Origin: Prevotella sp.
Lineage (GTDB): Bacteria; Bacteroidota; Bacteroidia; Bacteroidales; Bacteroidaceae
Direction of reading: 5' to 3'
NCBI GenBank assembly: GCA_017458125.1
Contig: JAFTGB010000025.1
Location: 1-42,656, forward strand
Length of the DNA: 42,656 nt
This document shows positions 18,739 to 27,003 of the stretch, one piece after another; the stretch's first letter is position 1; every line of letters begins with the position of its first letter. The notes below the pieces were generated by a model. It was not told where the DNA came from. It ran no database searches and worked only from the letters and a program-made list of their open reading frames with translations. The position numbers and the translations under genes are program-made.

Positions 18739-20940
18739 ATGAAGAGAACAGGACTCGTGGTTGTCTCCTTGCTGCTGGCCTTGGCATCAGTAGCAGGAAA
18801 CAAACTGCAACTGAAACAGATTACAGACGGCACCTTCCGTGCGGCGTCAATGGCTGCAGTCAGGACTATGCCTGACGGTGAGACGTACACACAGCTGAGC
18901 GATGACGGTCGCCGCATTGTGCAATATTCATTTAAAACGGGCAAGGAAGTAGCCGTCCTTTTTGACGTAGCTACGGCCAAGGGCTCACAACTTGACGCTA
19001 TTGACGACTACATGTTGAGCCCTGACGGCAGTCGTCTGCTTGTTCAGACCAATACGCAGCGCATCTACCGTCACTCGCTGACCGCCACCTATTATATATA
19101 TACTATACGCAACAATCGCCTTGTACCCCTGTCTGACCATGGTCCGCAGCAGACTCCTTTGTTCTCGCCCGACGGTTTGCAGATTGCTTTTGTGCGCGAC
19201 AATAACATTTTTATAGTCAAGTTGTTGTACGACAATGCTGAAGTGCAGATTACAAAAGACGGCAAGCGTAACGAAATTATCAACGGCATTCCCGATTGGG
19301 TCAATGAGGAAGAGTTCAGCAATGACCGCGCCATGGTGTTTACCGCCGACAGCAAGCAGTTAGTGTGGGTGCGCTACGATGAGTCCAAGGTGCCCCAGTA
19401 TTCCATGCAACTGTTCAAGGGGCTGGCTCCAGAGCGTACCGAGTATGCAGACTATCCCGGCTTCTACACCTACAAATATCCGATAGCGGGCCAGCAGAAC
19501 GCCCAGGCTACCCTGTGGAGTTTTGACATAGCCAGCAGACAAACCCGCCAGTTGCAGTTGCCGGTCGATGCCGACGGCTACGTGCCACGGTTAGTGATGA
19601 CGAGCGATGCCACTCAGGTGGCAGCCTATACGCTGAACCGCCATCAGGACTGTCTGCGCATCTTTATGTGCAACCCGCTGTCAACGGTGTGCAGACAGGT
19701 GGTAGAGGAGCAAGTAGACAAGTACGTCCGCGAGGAAGCCATGGAAGGCATCGTCATTACCGACCAGCACATCCTTGTACCCAGTGACCGCAGTGGGTGG
19801 ATGCACCTCTATCTGTATAATCATCATGGTCAGCTGTTGCGTCAGGTTGATACCGGCGACTACGAGGTGAGCACCGTCTATGGCTATGATGAAGCCACGG
19901 GCGACACCTATTTCGCCTCCCACGAGAGTGGAGCCACCGAGCAGCGTGTCTATGTTGTCCACGCCAACGGCAAGAAGGAATGCCTGACTCCTAAGGCAGG
20001 ATGGAATACTGCCGTATTCAGTCATAACTACAAGTATTTTATCCGCACATGGAGCGACCTTAACACTCCCCCCGAGTATGCTCTGTGCGACAATAAAGGT
20101 AAGGTGCTGACCACACTGATAGACAACCGTCAGCTCGTCACTACACTGTCAACTTACGACTTAGGCCAGCGCGAGTTGATGCAGTTGACTACGGCCGAGG
20201 GTGTCGTGCTCAACGCATGGGTGGTGAAACCCGCAGGATTTAATGCCTCACGCCGTTACCCTGTTGTGATGTACCAGTACGGAGGCCCGGGCAGCCAGCA
20301 GGTAAAGAATGTCTGGAACATCGGTATGGCCGGTCAGGGAGCCATCCTCGAACAACTGCTGTGCCAGCAGGGTTTTGTCTGCGTCTGCGTGGACAACCGT
20401 GGCACGGGCGGACGCGGTGCTGACTTCGAGAAATGCATTTACCAGAAGTTAGGACAGTTAGAAGCTGCCGACCAAGTGGAGGCAGCCCTGTGGTTAGGCC
20501 GTCAGCCGTGGGTCGACAAGGAGCGCATAGCCATCTGGGGCTGGTCCTTCGGAGGCTTCAACACGCTGATGAGCATGTCGGAGGGCCGTGAAGTCTTCCG
20601 TGCCGGCATTGCCATAGCACCGCCCACGTCCTGGAAGTTCTACGATACCGTCTACACGGAGCGTTTCATGCGCACACCGAAGGAGAACCCCATGGGCTAC
20701 TTCGATAATCCTATCCATCGTGCAGAGAAGTTACATGGCGCCCTGCTGTTGTGTCATGGTCTGGCCGATGACAACGTGCACTTCCGCAATACTGCTGAGT
20801 ACACCGAAGCTCTTGTGCAGGCCGACAAGGACTTCAGCCAGCTGGTCTATACCAACCGCAATCACGGCATCTATGGCGGCAACACGCGTCAGCACCTCTA
20901 CCGCCAGTGCCTCCAGTTCTTCGAGCGTGAACTGAAGTAA
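18739..20940 (+). CDS. Dipeptidyl peptidase IV (S9B serine peptidase)
   Basis: 733 residues with a signal peptide (MKRTGLVVVSLLLALASVAG). It removes Xaa-Pro dipeptides from peptide N-termini in the periplasm. The N-terminal beta-propeller (about 40-480) carries the Glu-Glu motif that holds the substrate amino terminus (PDWVNEEEFSND, Glu190-192). The C-terminal alpha/beta-hydrolase domain carries the triad Ser603 (GWSFGG), Asp677 (LADDNVHF) and His709 (NHGIYGG). The oxyanion region YQYGGPGSQQV and VDNRGTGGRG are also intact. In asaccharolytic or protein-fermenting Bacteroidales this enzyme feeds peptide uptake. Confidence 0.95.
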   Translation: MKRTGLVVVSLLLALASVAGNKLQLKQITDGTFRAASMAAVRTMPDGETYTQLSDDGRRIVQYSFKTGKEVAVLFDVATAKGSQLDAIDDYMLSPDGSRLLVQTNTQRIYRHSLTATYYIYTIRNNRLVPLSDHGPQQTPLFSPDGLQIAFVRDNNIFIVKLLYDNAEVQITKDGKRNEIINGIPDWVNEEEFSNDRAMVFTADSKQLVWVRYDESKVPQYSMQLFKGLAPERTEYADYPGFYTYKYPIAGQQNAQATLWSFDIASRQTRQLQLPVDADGYVPRLVMTSDATQVAAYTLNRHQDCLRIFMCNPLSTVCRQVVEEQVDKYVREEAMEGIVITDQHILVPSDRSGWMHLYLYNHHGQLLRQVDTGDYEVSTVYGYDEATGDTYFASHESGATEQRVYVVHANGKKECLTPKAGWNTAVFSHNYKYFIRTWSDLNTPPEYALCDNKGKVLTTLIDNRQLVTTLSTYDLGQRELMQLTTAEGVVLNAWVVKPAGFNASRRYPVVMYQYGGPGSQQVKNVWNIGMAGQGAILEQLLCQQGFVCVCVDNRGTGGRGADFEKCIYQKLGQLEAADQVEAALWLGRQPWVDKERIAIWGWSFGGFNTLMSMSEGREVFRAGIAIAPPTSWKFYDTVYTERFMRTPKENPMGYFDNPIHRAEKLHGALLLCHGLADDNVHFRNTAEYTEALVQADKDFSQLVYTNRNHGIYGGNTRQHLYRQCLQFFERELK

Positions 20941-21269
20941 AAACGGCATCTTTTCAAGTAAGAATTAAGCCTTTCTAACTATTTGATATTTAAGACGTTG
21001 AAATTTGATATCTGACGCTATCGAATTTGATGCCCCGCGGTACCAAAAAGTATCATCCGTTTTGGTAAATCGGCCAATCAAATTCGGTAGCGTCGGCAAT
21101 GAAATTCGCTACCGCCGCTGATGCTTTTTACCACTGCGGCTAATCTTTTTCCATCGAGTCGCCGATACAATTCCATAGTGCTGTTGAAACATTTTACCAA
21201 GTTTTTCTTTCAAAGCGCATATGAGTATCATTTTTTTTTCATAAATTTGCAACCAAAACCGGAACCGAC
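20941..21269. other. Gene-free spacer with a long imperfect hairpin and a promoter box
   Basis: No gene seen. GACGCTATCGAATTTGA (21014-21030) pairs with TCAAATTCGGTAGCGTC (21078-21094) with one mismatch. Inside, TACCAAAA (21041-21048) pairs with TTTTGGTA (21060-21067), so the whole 81-nt segment can fold as one interrupted hairpin. A second, competing pairing links CGGTAGCG at 21085-21092 to CGCTACCG just downstream. A TAAATTTG box at 21242-21249 precedes the next start codon by 20 bp. Confidence 0.7.
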
Positions 21270-24200
21270 ATGAGAATAGCCATACTAACCTCGGGCATAC
21301 TGCCAGTGCCGGCCGTGCAGGGCGGGGCTGTGGAGACACTGACAGACCACTATCTGGAATACAACAACCGTCACCGGCTGCACGACATCACAGTGTATAG
21401 CGTCTGGCATCCGGGAGTGACGGCGTGCAGTGAGCTGCAGTCGGACGTCAACCACTACCGCTATGTCGACATGTCCAGCCTGTGGGCCAGGGTGCGCAAA
21501 CGCCTGCACGGGTTGCGTTGTCACGACTCTTTCTATCACTACAGTATAGACTATTTTCTGCATGAAGTCCTAAGACAGATGAAGAACGAGCACTACGACC
21601 TCATATTATTAGAGAACAGACCCCATTATGCCCTGCAGTTGAGGGACAGGAGGGAAGAACCGCTGGTCTACCACCTGCACAACGATTTCGTCAATGGCGA
21701 CACCACCGAGGGTCGCGACCTCTACAATATGGCCTCCAGAATTATCACCGTCTCCGACTATATACGCAGTCGTGTGGTAACCTGTACTGACCAGGCTGAC
21801 GCCAAGACCATCACCGTGCATAACGGCATAGACCAGGATGCCTTCGCCCGTCCTGTCTCGCTGACACGCGAGGCCATCGGGTGCCGCCAAAACGACTTCA
21901 TCATGGCGTTCAGCGGGCGTCTGGTGCCCGAAAAAGGCATCATGGAACTGATAGAGGCCATGCGCCGGTTCAGCGATGAGGACAACATCAAGCTCATGGT
22001 CATGGGCAGCTCCTTCTTTGACAATGACAAAGGCGACAACCCCTTTGTGGACCAGTTAAAGAAGCGTGCCAAGGACATGGGCGACCGCATCATCTTTACC
22101 GGCTACGTCCGCCACGAACAGATGGCCGACTACCTGCGCCTGGCCGACGTGGCCGTGATACCCTCCACATGGGAGGACCCCTTTCCCACTACCGTCCTGG
22201 AAGGCATGAGCGCCGGACTGCCGCTGATTACAACCGACCGGGGCGGCATACCGGAAATGGTAGACAGCGAGGTGGCTCTCGTGGTACCCTACAAGAAGGA
22301 GCGCAGGCAGGCGTTCCTGGACGGAATGGCCGATGCCGTCACCATGCTTTACGGCAGCACCGCACTACGCCGACGCATGGGCGAGGCATCGAGGAAACGT
22401 TCGGAGCGCTACTCGAAGGACAACTACGCCCGCCACTTCTTCCAGGCGCTGACAGCCCGTCTGTGCGTAACGGTCATGCTACTGCTGTCGGTGTGCGGCA
22501 TGACGGGGCGCGAGCGGCAGCGCGTCTTCTTTACCTTCGACTCGTCGCACGGACTGGCCGACAACAGTGCGCAGGCCATTAAGTGTACGCGAACGGGACG
22601 CATGGTGGTGTCTACGATAGGTCACATCAACTTCTACGACGGCGATGCCTTCACCCACATAGACCCTCAGAACCGTGACTTCTTCACGCTGCCCAAGTAC
22701 AACGGGCATTACCACCTGTACTTTGACCGCTATCACCACCTGTGGCTCAAGGACAAGAAGAGTGTGACTTGCGTAGACTTGGCCATGGAGCGGTTCGTCA
22801 GCAACGTTGACAGTGTCATCAAGTCTATAGGCATGCGGCACAGGGTGGACGACATGTTCGGCGACCAGACCAACCGGATGTGGTTCCTTTCGGGCAACAA
22901 AATGTATAACGTGGGACAGCGCAAGGTGATGCCCGTACTGCGCAAGGCGGAGCTGCACGATGTCGAGGTCTATAAGGACAGCATCTTCTTCCTGTTCTAT
23001 GCCGACGGCATGGCCGCTGCCTACAGCATGGCCAACTGCCGCCACCTGTACGATGCCGCGGCACTGCAAGGAGCCGACCGCCAGAAATATGCCAGCTCGT
23101 CGGTGCTGCTGCCCGACGGCGACACGTTCTACCAGATACGCAACGGCAAGGAGGAAGCCGTACTGCTGGCTTTCGACGTGCCAAGACAAGAGTGGCGCGA
23201 GCTGATGCGCACGCCATACCACCTGAACAATATGGCCATCCACCAAGGCCTCCTCTATGTGGCTGCTGCCTTCGGCTACTGGACGTTCAACCTGAAGACG
23301 GGCGAGCGCAAGCACTACGAGACGCTGCAACTGACGAGGGACCGCCGCCTGCAGACTGATGTCAACACGATATGTTTCGACCGCCAGGGCGGCATGTGGC
23401 TGGGTACCGAACGCAGGGGACTGCTCTACTCGAAGCCCATCAAGTCGCCCTTTGAGAAATGGACATGGGACGAGGAGGAAGCCCGACAGTACGGAGCCAT
23501 GCTTTACGAGCACTCGCTGAAGCAGACGGAGACCTTGCCCCGCCATGTCAACTGCCGTTTCCGCGACAGCCGCGGATGGGTGTGGACGGGCACCTACAGT
23601 GGGCTGGAGGTGATGAAGCCGGGCAGCAGGCTGCCGCGCGTCTACACCAAGAAGGACGGACTGCAGAACGAAATGGTGCACAGCATCGTCGAGGACAATA
23701 ACCACGACATCTGGATTGGTACCAGTTTCGGCATTTGCCACCTCTTTATACGCAACGGCGAGGTTGCCCATATGGAGACCTACGTAGCCTATGACAATGT
23801 TCCTAACGAGTCGTTCGTCAACGGCCGGGCAATGAAGTTGGCTGACGGCAGCATCGTCATGCAGTCGCTGGACCATGTGGTCAAGTTCAACCCGGGCAAG
23901 TTCAGCATGGACTCCATAGCCAAGTTCGTACTCTATCCGAAACTCATCAGCCTCTCTGTCAACGGGCGTGTGGTGAAACCCGGCGAAGAACACGACGGGA
24001 GGGTGATACTGGAGAAGGCCATCACGCGTACACGGGAATTCAGCATCGACTATGACCAGAACTCGCTGGTGCTGACCTTCTCGGGACTGAACTACTTCCG
24101 TCCGTTGCAGACCTACTACCGCTTCCGGGTGAAAGGCATGTATAACGGCTGGCACACCGTGTCGTACACCAGCGTTGAGGGCATGGTGGACGGCAAGGGA

Positions 24201-24893
24201 CTGCTGCACCTGCCCATGATGGGATTGGGAACAGGACGGTATGAGGTGGAGCTGCAGGCATCCATGTCGCCAGACATCTGGCCGCAGGAGCCTTTTGTGT
24301 GGGTAGTCAACGTGGAGGAGCCGTGGTGGCGTTCTACAGGCATCTACATCCTGCTGACCTCGTTGCTGGCTCTGTTGGCGGCTGCCAATGTCATTTGGTT
24401 CTACCGCAACACACGTCTAAGGATGCTGCGCAACAACGAGGATAACGAGATTCTGAAACGTGTCCGTAGCTTTGCCGACCGTTGCGGGTCGTTGAACGGC
24501 GAGGTGCTAACCCCCTTTACCAGCAACATCAGCAACGGACTGGAAACCAAAAGCGAGGATGAGAAAGCGTTTGAGAACGCGATGGTGAAGATAGTGCCTT
24601 ATATGAACATGAACCAACGAGGCTCCATCACTATGCGACAGCTGGCAGACGTGTCGGGCATGGATGTGCAGACGCTATACCGGCAGCTGTCAACGAACCT
24701 GTATAAGAACCCGCGTCAGTTGGTGGAGCGGCTGAGACTTCAGGAGGCTGCTGCCATGTTGCTGGAGACGACGCTGACCGTGGAGCAGGTGGCCGAGGAG
24801 TGCCGGTTCGTGTCGCCCAACTACTTCATAGCCAGTTTCTACCATCACTACCGGAAGACACCGGCCGACTACCGGAACTCTACGCCACGGTAG
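21270..24893 (+). CDS. Fusion: GT4 glycosyltransferase + propeller/Y_Y_Y sensor + AraC-type regulator
   Basis: 1207 codons without a stop. Residues 1 to about 392 form a complete GT-B glycosyltransferase of GT4 type: MRIAILTSGILPVPAVQGGA, HNDFVNG, the nucleotide-sugar half FSGRLVPEKGIMELIEAMRR, and the Glu/Asp...Glu catalytic region WEDPFPTTVLEGMSAGLP (Glu302, Asp303, Glu311). Residues about 394-412 are hydrophobic (RLCVTVMLLLSVCGMTG) and resemble a signal peptide. Then follow a periplasmic Reg_prop-like propeller (LWLKDKKSVTCVD, GGMWLGTERRGLLYS, DIWIGTSFGICH), a Y_Y_Y domain near 900-1010 (NSLVLTFSGLNY, YRFRVKG), a membrane helix (about 1022-1043) and an AraC helix-turn-helix (1125-1205, ending FYHHYRKTPADYR). 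There is no histidine kinase or receiver. The topology is consistent: GT and AraC parts in the cytoplasm, sensor outside. Alternatively a separate regulator starts internally (for example Met at 22380 or 22476). Confidence 0.8.
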   Translation: MRIAILTSGILPVPAVQGGAVETLTDHYLEYNNRHRLHDITVYSVWHPGVTACSELQSDVNHYRYVDMSSLWARVRKRLHGLRCHDSFYHYSIDYFLHEVLRQMKNEHYDLILLENRPHYALQLRDRREEPLVYHLHNDFVNGDTTEGRDLYNMASRIITVSDYIRSRVVTCTDQADAKTITVHNGIDQDAFARPVSLTREAIGCRQNDFIMAFSGRLVPEKGIMELIEAMRRFSDEDNIKLMVMGSSFFDNDKGDNPFVDQLKKRAKDMGDRIIFTGYVRHEQMADYLRLADVAVIPSTWEDPFPTTVLEGMSAGLPLITTDRGGIPEMVDSEVALVVPYKKERRQAFLDGMADAVTMLYGSTALRRRMGEASRKRSERYSKDNYARHFFQALTARLCVTVMLLLSVCGMTGRERQRVFFTFDSSHGLADNSAQAIKCTRTGRMVVSTIGHINFYDGDAFTHIDPQNRDFFTLPKYNGHYHLYFDRYHHLWLKDKKSVTCVDLAMERFVSNVDSVIKSIGMRHRVDDMFGDQTNRMWFLSGNKMYNVGQRKVMPVLRKAELHDVEVYKDSIFFLFYADGMAAAYSMANCRHLYDAAALQGADRQKYASSSVLLPDGDTFYQIRNGKEEAVLLAFDVPRQEWRELMRTPYHLNNMAIHQGLLYVAAAFGYWTFNLKTGERKHYETLQLTRDRRLQTDVNTICFDRQGGMWLGTERRGLLYSKPIKSPFEKWTWDEEEARQYGAMLYEHSLKQTETLPRHVNCRFRDSRGWVWTGTYSGLEVMKPGSRLPRVYTKKDGLQNEMVHSIVEDNNHDIWIGTSFGICHLFIRNGEVAHMETYVAYDNVPNESFVNGRAMKLADGSIVMQSLDHVVKFNPGKFSMDSIAKFVLYPKLISLSVNGRVVKPGEEHDGRVILEKAITRTREFSIDYDQNSLVLTFSGLNYFRPLQTYYRFRVKGMYNGWHTVSYTSVEGMVDGKGLLHLPMMGLGTGRYEVELQASMSPDIWPQEPFVWVVNVEEPWWRSTGIYILLTSLLALLAAANVIWFYRNTRLRMLRNNEDNEILKRVRSFADRCGSLNGEVLTPFTSNISNGLETKSEDEKAFENAMVKIVPYMNMNQRGSITMRQLADVSGMDVQTLYRQLSTNLYKNPRQLVERLRLQEAAAMLLETTLTVEQVAEECRFVSPNYFIASFYHHYRKTPADYRNSTPR

Positions 24894-26095
24894 CCCACCA
24901 GGCGCCAGGTGCGCTCGCCCGTTCCCTTGTAATAAACCAGAGCCTGATAGCGGTTCTCGGTCTGATAGAAGCTGCCCTCCGACAAGGGTACGCCCCCTTG
25001 TGCTGTAACGTATTGGTAGGAGTAATATCCCTGCTTCTGCATCAGACGGGCATAATAGGTTGAGGTTGTGCCGTCGTATGCCATCAGGTAATGGTCGCGC
25101 TCGCTGTCCGTTGTCCAGTGTCCGTCTATATAGATGTCGCCTTGGTAAGGAGCTTGCAGGGTGTAGTTGACCCAAACGTAGTCGCAGGTATAGTCAATTT
25201 CCGTGTTGTCGCTGTTGCGAATGCAGAAAGCACCGTCAGCATCGACGTCGGTGAGGTAGTTACGACGCACGATGGAGGCAAAAGGATAGACCTCGTAGTG
25301 GGTGCCCGTCCACTCGATGTGGTCAATGCCCATGGTAGGATGGCTCACGTCCAGTATCTCGTATTTGTGGTACTCGTTGCCGGCGTCGAAGATGAACTGG
25401 CGGTTGTGCTCCCAGCTCAGGGCTGTTCCGCTGATAAGATTGGGGCGGACATCGCGGCGAGCCTGGTCCTCGCGCCAGTTTTGCATCACGACGGTCTTCA
25501 CTTGCTCGTCCAGGTCGTTAACGCGCAAGTCGTTGTATTTGACGGTCATCGACAATTGCTGATGACTCATGTTGTGGTCAATGTCGGTATTGGTGGTGAC
25601 GGTAAGCCCGACATCCATCAGGGGCTCCACGACGTAAAACTCCACTTGCAGCACCTCGTCGTTGCCGCAGTCCTCATCGTAGACCGTCAGCCGGTAGTTG
25701 CCGCTCATCTTCAGTCGGCATCGCTCGTTGGGGATGGAGAGTTGGTAGTGGGTGTAGAGCACGGTGGTGTTGATGGAGTTCTGGTAGTCGTCGATAGGAA
25801 TGTCGTTGAACCCAGCCAGCCAGTCACTCTCAAAAAGCTCCTGAGAGACGCTCCAGTCGGCCTCGCAGTGTTCCAGCCGGTAGACAAAACGGTGGTAGTT
25901 GTGCGACAGTTCGTCGAAACCTACAATCAGCCTGTCAGTAGAACCTAAGGCCATGATGGGACGGTTGAGCCAGTCGCCATTGACCGTACTGGTCAGCGAT
26001 TTCACTTGTGGCGTGAAGATGCGGTTGCCTGCCCATACCGTCTTCAGGGTGGTTGCTGCCAACAGCACGATTAGCAATAAGCCTCTTTTCATCAT
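24869..26095 (-). CDS. Type IX secretion plug-like protein (DUF5103)
   Basis: 408 residues from the Met-Met-Lys-Arg start at 26095, which gives a good signal peptide (MMKRGLLLIVLLAATTLKTVWAG, split); an earlier start lies inside prmA. The order of motifs fits DUF5103: IFTPQVKSLTSTVNG, FDELSHNYHRFVYRLEHCEA with DWS, LFESDWLAGFNDIPIDDYQN, YTHYQLSIPNERCRLKMSGN, YRLTVYDE, and the late GYYSYQYV. DUF5103 proteins are known as the plug of the SprA translocon of type IX secretion. Whether the full system is present cannot be told from this window. Its 3' end overlaps the end of the convergent fusion gene by 25 bp, and its start overlaps the prmA stop. Confidence 0.8.
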   Translation of the reverse strand: MMKRGLLLIVLLAATTLKTVWAGNRIFTPQVKSLTSTVNGDWLNRPIMALGSTDRLIVGFDELSHNYHRFVYRLEHCEADWSVSQELFESDWLAGFNDIPIDDYQNSINTTVLYTHYQLSIPNERCRLKMSGNYRLTVYDEDCGNDEVLQVEFYVVEPLMDVGLTVTTNTDIDHNMSHQQLSMTVKYNDLRVNDLDEQVKTVVMQNWREDQARRDVRPNLISGTALSWEHNRQFIFDAGNEYHKYEILDVSHPTMGIDHIEWTGTHYEVYPFASIVRRNYLTDVDADGAFCIRNSDNTEIDYTCDYVWVNYTLQAPYQGDIYIDGHWTTDSERDHYLMAYDGTTSTYYARLMQKQGYYSYQYVTAQGGVPLSEGSFYQTENRYQALVYYKGTGERTWRLVGYRGVEFR

Positions 26096-27003
26096 CGTTG
26101 TAACATCAGACAGGCCCATTCGCCGTCGTTTTTCTTAATGACGAGATGCAATCCCAAGGCCTTTGCCTTATCCAGAAGCAGGGTACAGTCAGCATCGTAG
26201 AAACCGCTGAGGATGAGTGTGGCGGCGGGTTCCATCGTGCTGACAAAGCGCTCCATGTCCTGAAGCAGAATGTTGCGGTTGATGTTGGCCATGACTAACG
26301 CGTAGCGGCCGGTGATGTCATCAAGCAGCGTCGCATTGCCGAGCATGGCGGTGAGGTTGGCGTCAACACCGTTGATGACGGCATTGTGGCGTGTGTTGTC
26401 CACGCTCCACTCGTCAATGTCGTAGGCAGTACATTCGGCGGCTCCCAATTTCAGGGCGCAAATGCCTAAGATGCCGGTGCCGCATCCGCAGTCCAAGACT
26501 CGTTTTCCGGTTAAATCCATGTCGAGCAGCATACTGCAAATCATGCGCGTGGTCTCGTGGGTACCGGTGCCAAAAGCCTGACGGGCATCGATTTCGATGG
26601 AGTTGAGAGTTGAGAGCTGGGAGCTGAGAGATATGTCTTGCGGCAGGTGGCGGCCATCGTGGATGACTATCATACGGTTATTTGGGGTAGTGCGCTCACC
26701 GCTAACTAACCCCTTACCACTGATAACAATGGGCTCGAAACCCTCCTGCTCCCATGGCTCATTCCAGTCGCGGTCTTCTGCTTCACCTATATTATATATA
26801 ATATGTGTAGCCTCAAAAGGGAAACTGGCAATGCAGGAGTCAAGGGCTTGACGGTCGAACAGGCTTTGTTGGACGTAGGCTTTCAGACCCGTGGGGGTGT
26901 CTTCAAAGGTCTCGAAACCTGCTTCTGCCGATAAGGCTGCCAACAGGTCGGCGGCATCGGTAGAGTAGGGCGTCAGGGTGAATGTAACCTCGAAATACTT
27001 CAT
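26092..27003 (-). CDS. prmA: Ribosomal protein L11 methyltransferase
   Basis: 303 residues. The N-terminal substrate-binding part (MKYFEVTFTLTPYSTDAADL, EAGFETFEDTPTGLKAYV) precedes a class I SAM methyltransferase with motif I DCGCGTGILGICALKLGA, YDIDEWSV and the catalytic-site region MANINRNIL. It trimethylates ribosomal protein L11. Directly before the family motif AFGTGTHETTRM sits an insertion SLSSQLSTLNS encoded by a 7-bp repeat (26601-26630). Such insertion was not expected at this conserved point, though the reading frame is intact. The stop overlaps the start of the DUF5103 gene. A CAAAATTA box (TAATTTTG on the coding strand) at 27024-27031 marks a likely promoter. Confidence 0.95.
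   Translation of the reverse strand: MKYFEVTFTLTPYSTDAADLLAALSAEAGFETFEDTPTGLKAYVQQSLFDRQALDSCIASFPFEATHIIYNIGEAEDRDWNEPWEQEGFEPIVISGKGLVSGERTTPNNRMIVIHDGRHLPQDISLSSQLSTLNSIEIDARQAFGTGTHETTRMICSMLLDMDLTGKRVLDCGCGTGILGICALKLGAAECTAYDIDEWSVDNTRHNAVINGVDANLTAMLGNATLLDDITGRYALVMANINRNILLQDMERFVSTMEPAATLILSGFYDADCTLLLDKAKALGLHLVIKKNDGEWACLMLQR
26601..26630. repeat. Heptamer tandem repeat inside prmA
   Basis: Four 7-mers AGTTGAG, AGTTGAG, AGCTGGG, AGCTGAG and a partial fifth. Translated on the minus strand it gives the LSSQLSTLNS insertion. The motif resembles the GTTGAGC repeat inside uvrB. Confidence 0.9.

Follow-up and report, generated by a model that had tools for sequence, protein, structure and literature searches.

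A predicted GT4 glycosyltransferase in frame with a predicted one-component membrane regulator, joined at the regulator's signal peptide, in a Prevotella genome

Introduction

Cytochrome b/c1 (fbcH) of Bradyrhizobium is made as a polyprotein that is split at an internal signal sequence, and the cleavage has been shown. The protein described here resembles it in that a single frame holds two proteins and, between the two, a signal peptide. On the sensory side, the closest described systems are the Bacteroides HTCS (3v9f, 4a2l), which likewise carry a propeller ectodomain and an AraC-type domain on one inner-membrane protein. A second group are the SusR-type one-component regulators, membrane proteins which, according to PMC3878776, also combine a periplasmic sensor with a cytoplasmic DNA-binding domain; the same paper states that the DNA-binding domain of SusR is not significantly similar to that of any other known factor.

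Here, we describe a gene of Prevotella sp. in which a sensor of this general kind follows a glycosyltransferase without an intervening stop codon. The gene lies on contig JAFTGB010000025.1, of which a stretch of 42,656 nucleotides (the window) was analysed.

Results

The frame starts with the ATG at 21270 and reads through 1207 codons without internal stop to the stop codon that ends at 24893, as had been claimed in the original prediction; the calculated mass of the product is 139 kDa instead of the approximately 135 kDa given there. A Pfam scan of the 1207-residue protein revealed Glycos_transf_1 (PF00534, residues 200-377, E 3.6e-30), Reg_prop and HTH_18. It detected no histidine kinase and no receiver, which agrees with the sensor without kinase and receiver that had been proposed before. 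The assignment of signal peptides and membrane helices relied on simple hydrophobicity, on residue patterns and on inspection by eye. The features are listed in Table 1.

Table 1 Features of the fused gene and its surroundings in the window.
Feature	Position	Strand	Remark
TAnnTTTG box TAAATTTG	21242..21249	+	20 bases 5' of the ATG
Fused open reading frame	21270..24893	+	1207 codons; predicted GT4 glycosyltransferase and one-component membrane regulator
GT4 glycosyltransferase half	21270..22451	+	residues 1-394; Pfam and alignment with relatives
TGA in the next (+1) frame	22450..22452	+	exactly at the joint
Joint helix TARLCVTVMLLLSVCGMTG	22452..22508	+	residues 395-413; putative sensor signal peptide that has become internal
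Periplasmic ectodomain (predicted)	22509..24332	+	residues 414-1021; propeller repeats of two-component-regulator type, HTCS-ectodomain-like
Second membrane helix (predicted)	24333..24404	+	residues 1022-1045; hydrophobicity
AraC-type DNA-binding domain (HTH_18)	24642..24878	+	residues 1125-1203; Pfam and profile
Type IX secretion plug protein (NF052315)	24869..26119	-	convergent; overlaps the fused frame by 25 bases

The N-terminal half could be aligned over its full length with nine stand-alone relatives (36-62% identity, E311 invariant), which stop within about 10 residues of the joint. By domain and full-length alignment it is a complete GT4 glycosyltransferase, and in this the original prediction was right; the end of the enzyme, put at about residue 392 there, is here placed at residues 394/395 (22451/22452 of the window). 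The stand-alone GT4 relatives of the genus resemble the window copy in their complete GT4 region, with up to 62% identity, but those listed are free-standing with frames of 396-415 codons, whereas the window copy is fused to a sensor. The second-best glycosyltransferase match in the window genome had 28% identity over residues 153-333, and the fused copy is thus the only one of its family to turn up in the draft, which is 88% complete.

For the sensor half, 28 relatives were selected for alignment (29-57% identity). A profile of these 29 sensors matched the solved HTCS ectodomains 3v9f and 4a2l, in three stretches each, and also AraC-type domains. The Y_Y_Y domain that had been assigned to the ectodomain was found, at E 0.01, in 12 of the 29 aligned sensors and not in that of the window. 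The second helix and the HTH domain are separated by only 79 residues. From its sequence, this half is a one-component membrane regulator in which a sensor and a predicted DNA-binding domain are connected by a helix, with no phosphorelay. The type IX secretion plug gene is convergent with the sensor gene in 17 of the 18 longer sensor loci. Unlike this conserved gene, the upstream neighbours of the sensor gene vary between loci; in four genomes (L005, L109, L110, L112) a tRNA-Pro (TGG) gene lies directly 5' of it, which is perhaps a sign of rearrangement on the upstream side.

The border between the two halves coincides exactly with the sensor's signal peptide, as predicted originally: FFQAL, with which the part characteristic of the glycosyltransferase ends, runs directly into TARLCVTVMLLLSVCGMTG. 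ATG, GTG and TTG were searched from residue 370 to the start of the hydrophobic core at residue 399, and none was found. An ATG at residue 403 lies inside the core and CTG codons are present at 394 and 398; any of these is a possible, though unusual, separate start of the sensor, but most simply the sensor half would be made through the fusion. For comparison, sensor start codons were counted in 52 loci, of which two without the anchor motif were dropped. In 48 of the remaining 50, at least one ATG (44) or GTG (4) is found within 21 residues before the core. The two exceptions are the window and a locus of another genome (L087 of G143), in which the nearest ATG, GTG or TTG is 29 and 30 residues before the core, respectively, and thus inside the partner protein; both also have an ATG within the core. 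Between 20901 and 22520 there is a single exact TAnnTTTG box, which we take to be a -7 element of the Bacteroidetes type. It is located at 21242, 5' of the glycosyltransferase, and the sensor half is therefore without a visible promoter of its own. In a set of 39 sensor loci (L002-L012, L052-L078 and L087) a TA(2-4)TTTG box is absent from the 150 bases before the match in seven, L087 included.

The TGA in the next frame at the joint is possibly a trace of overlapping genes. Overlaps do occur in the family: in four of the 39 loci (L063, L065, L066, L067) the start of the sensor overlaps an upstream gene of 362-363 codons by 4 bases, which suggests that an overlapping pair may have preceded the fusion, and these overlaps are possible intermediates on the way to it. 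By eye, the upstream gene of these four loci is transporter-like. In L009 the sensor start overlaps a doubtful frame of 126 codons.

The whole protein was searched against 60 relatives and then against 398 genomes, a sample of the larger genus, with the top two candidates scored per genome. Among the matches listed for the 398 genus genomes, the sensor half gave at least 140 further rows from 140 genomes, and in none of the 140 was this glycosyltransferase in frame with the sensor. The listed sensor frames have 648-890 codons, with the exception of that in G143 (1070). Both halves were listed for 15 genomes: 14 of these have them on separate contigs, and in the remaining one (G384) a distance of about 125 kb lies between them. 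A match to this glycosyltransferase (E 0.001) was found in none of the sensor loci, many of which had flanks of only 1.5 kb. A sensor search in 399 genomes of the family yielded no fusion besides the window, and a second search of 398 genomes of the genus, drawn from another centre and overlapping almost completely with the first 398, gave no further one; a scan of named genomes returned only eight distant sensors with 25-29% identity. In G488 and G506 long frames were checked, and what precedes the ordinary ATG start there proved to be noise. None of the other genomes searched showed the fusion: wherever both halves were listed they are separate, and the two are fused in the window only. An arrangement that had been considered for close relatives, two distinct but overlapping genes with a stop codon close to residue 392, was seen in none of the relatives searched.

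The exceptional frame of G143 (L087, 2295-5507 on contig C86) encodes 1070 residues with sigma-70 regions 1.2, 2 and 4 followed by a sensor of the same family. Here, a sigma-70 factor meets the sensor at the signal peptide, at the same point as the glycosyltransferase does in the window, in an independent joint. The sigma factor is stand-alone in G246, G376, G304 and G013. In G106 (L121, 809-2305, minus strand) a sigma-like protein is joined to an SGNH-like exported protein that has no ATG before its hydrophobic core; the same pair occurs in G007 (L125), but with a stop between. In G348 (L120, minus strand) a sigma factor is joined to a peptidase-like exported protein that has an ATG of its own, and the frame is open to the contig end. 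The joints in G106 and G348, too, lie at the signal peptide. The SGNH-like and peptidase-like partners were named by eye, without a family search.

To gauge the frequency of such joints, about 1.42 Mb outside the window were scanned unselected in four genomes (G000, G370, G141, G290), with a hydrophobicity filter at slightly different thresholds and candidates judged by eye. One similar joint was found; similar joints are rare. It is located in G370, a single-contig genome, where CoaBC, an enzyme needed for coenzyme A synthesis, runs in one frame into the signal peptide of PorD (L163, 7281-9365; G370:C1:1597281-1599365). The parts cover positions 1-391 of 392 of the CoaBC model TIGR00521 and 4-295 of 295 of the model for the type IX secretion protein PorD (NF052317), and the fusion is the sole CoaBC match in the genome at E 1e-5. 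Of 32 further CoaBC loci that were read, 6 contain CoaBC alone and 26 both genes; among the latter, one (L168 of G124) is fused and retains an ATG at the joint, and in the other 25, which include the window's own genome, a stop separates the genes. The loci were partly picked for long frames, and the fused 2 of 27 is not a rate. CoaBC/PorD fusions that had seemed to exist in G111, G027, G120 and G017 were rejected on direct reading of the long frames; the listed length of an open frame by itself is therefore no evidence of fusion.

Discussion

Taken together, the data argue that the gene is probably the product of a recent, lineage-specific, in-frame fusion at a signal peptide, in which a stand-alone GT4 gene and a one-component regulator came to encode one chain. 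A stand-alone glycosyltransferase gene would have come to lie directly 5' of a stand-alone regulator gene, and loss of the regulator's promoter and start codon and of the glycosyltransferase's stop codon would then have produced one frame. The original prediction had suggested that the fusion could have arisen by loss of a stop codon between adjacent genes. For this, a rearrangement would have been needed first: the glycosyltransferase adjoins the sensor in no locus examined, many of which had flanks of only 1.5 kb. With no second genome that carries the fusion, selection for it cannot be shown, and with the closest sensor relative at 57% identity the history of the joint cannot be traced.

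Could the fusion be an artefact, either of misjoining two genes of one or two genomes or of a small indel error at the joint? The window genome is a draft of 86 contigs with 88% completeness, the fusion turned up in a single genome, the joint has a TGA in the next frame, and the pair is adjacent in no relative examined, all of which would fit an artefact. However, the join keeps the frame and hits both gene borders, which is not expected of a chimera; furthermore, the 221-base stretch around the joint has one match in the genome, the third-position G+C content is continuous across it, the joint contains no long homopolymer, the sensor is without a usual separate start codon, and a similar joint (CoaBC::PorD) exists in the single-contig genome G370. 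The nearest genus relatives of the two halves are similarly distant (62% for the glycosyltransferase, 57% for the sensor). Downstream, synteny with several relatives extends over several genes; upstream, the neighbouring gene at 18739-20940 (DPP4-like by eye) has neither half within flanks of at most about 1.5 kb in 12 relatives. An assembly error behind the fusion is unlikely, and we give the artefact only a slight chance.

A functional sensor-enzyme, with control between the glycan-sensing ectodomain and the attached glycosyltransferase in one direction or the other, appears improbable to us. Both halves are complete, and they would remain together in the window because its signal peptidase site at the usual place is altered; yet the fusion recurs in none of the 140 other sensor rows among the matches listed, in G143 a sigma factor is attached to this sensor instead, and the conserved neighbour of the sensor gene is the plug gene of type IX secretion and not a gene of glycan synthesis. 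The sigma factor as partner in G143 makes the glycosyltransferase look incidental, and this and the neighbour are the grounds on which functional coupling is given a low probability. The tie between glycan synthesis and sensing that had been suggested originally thus finds no backing, with the halves apart in the 15 genomes in which both are listed and the G143 sensor attached to another protein.

If, as we prefer, the gene is a true fusion, the chain would be translated whole and the glycosyltransferase would fold in the cytoplasm, while the old signal peptide, now internal, would send the propeller ectodomain to the periplasm and the second helix would return the AraC domain to the cytoplasm; the glycosyltransferase would thereby be tethered to the inner membrane. 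A branch of this explanation, compatible with it, is a signal-peptide polyprotein: the chain would normally be cut by signal peptidase I, and the fusion would only couple expression and leave a membrane tail on the glycosyltransferase. We rate this at somewhat under an even chance. At 16, the helix at the joint has the same uncharged length as the median signal peptide in the family (29 sensors), but this length hardly discriminates, the second helix having 18 in the window and a median of 18. Candidate cleavage sites are VCG↓M in the window and ATA↓D in G143, and HA↓QE in G370 fits the rule that signal peptidase I of Bacteroidetes usually exposes a glutamine, as stated in PMC5837995. A point against cleavage in the window is that 26 out of the 27 other sensors counted (without L087) carry a small-x-small site 12-15 residues before a conserved motif and the window does not. 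At the usual place the window has MTG↓R, and the nearest acceptable site, VCG↓M, follows two residues after the core. Given the altered site in the window and the sites kept in G143 and G370, the window protein may stay whole and the other two look cuttable. The chances for a cut, giving a membrane-tailed glycosyltransferase and an ordinary sensor, and for a two-pass protein appear about even.

Taken alone, the protein is a curiosity whose domain order was found in no other genome searched, and among the publications listed in searches for this layout, for split or overlapping-gene fusions or for internal signal peptides we recognised none that describes it, although a description may exist in print. 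Together with the other joints at signal peptides, it raises the question of whether bacteria tolerate, or even use, internal signal peptides by which cytoplasmic enzymes or sigma factors are placed on the membrane. Tentatively, and with some reserve, we suggest that in-frame fusions of a complete cytoplasmic gene to the signal peptide of the exported protein behind it have arisen repeatedly in this genus, and that the export machinery may handle the internal signal peptide, giving either membrane-tailed enzymes and transcription factors or polyproteins that signal peptidase I splits. The best test case is G370, since its sole CoaBC match is the fusion and CoaBC is needed for coenzyme A synthesis. 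A fusion by itself need not mean functional coupling.

In comparison with the known systems, the fused protein differs from fbcH in that it has a candidate site, whereas for fbcH the cleavage has been shown. The likeness to SusR is one of description, as given in PMC3878776, and the fused protein is set apart from SusR by an AraC-type domain and a Reg_prop ectodomain. From the HTCS of Bacteroides it differs in having no histidine kinase and no receiver and in carrying a glycosyltransferase at its N-terminus.
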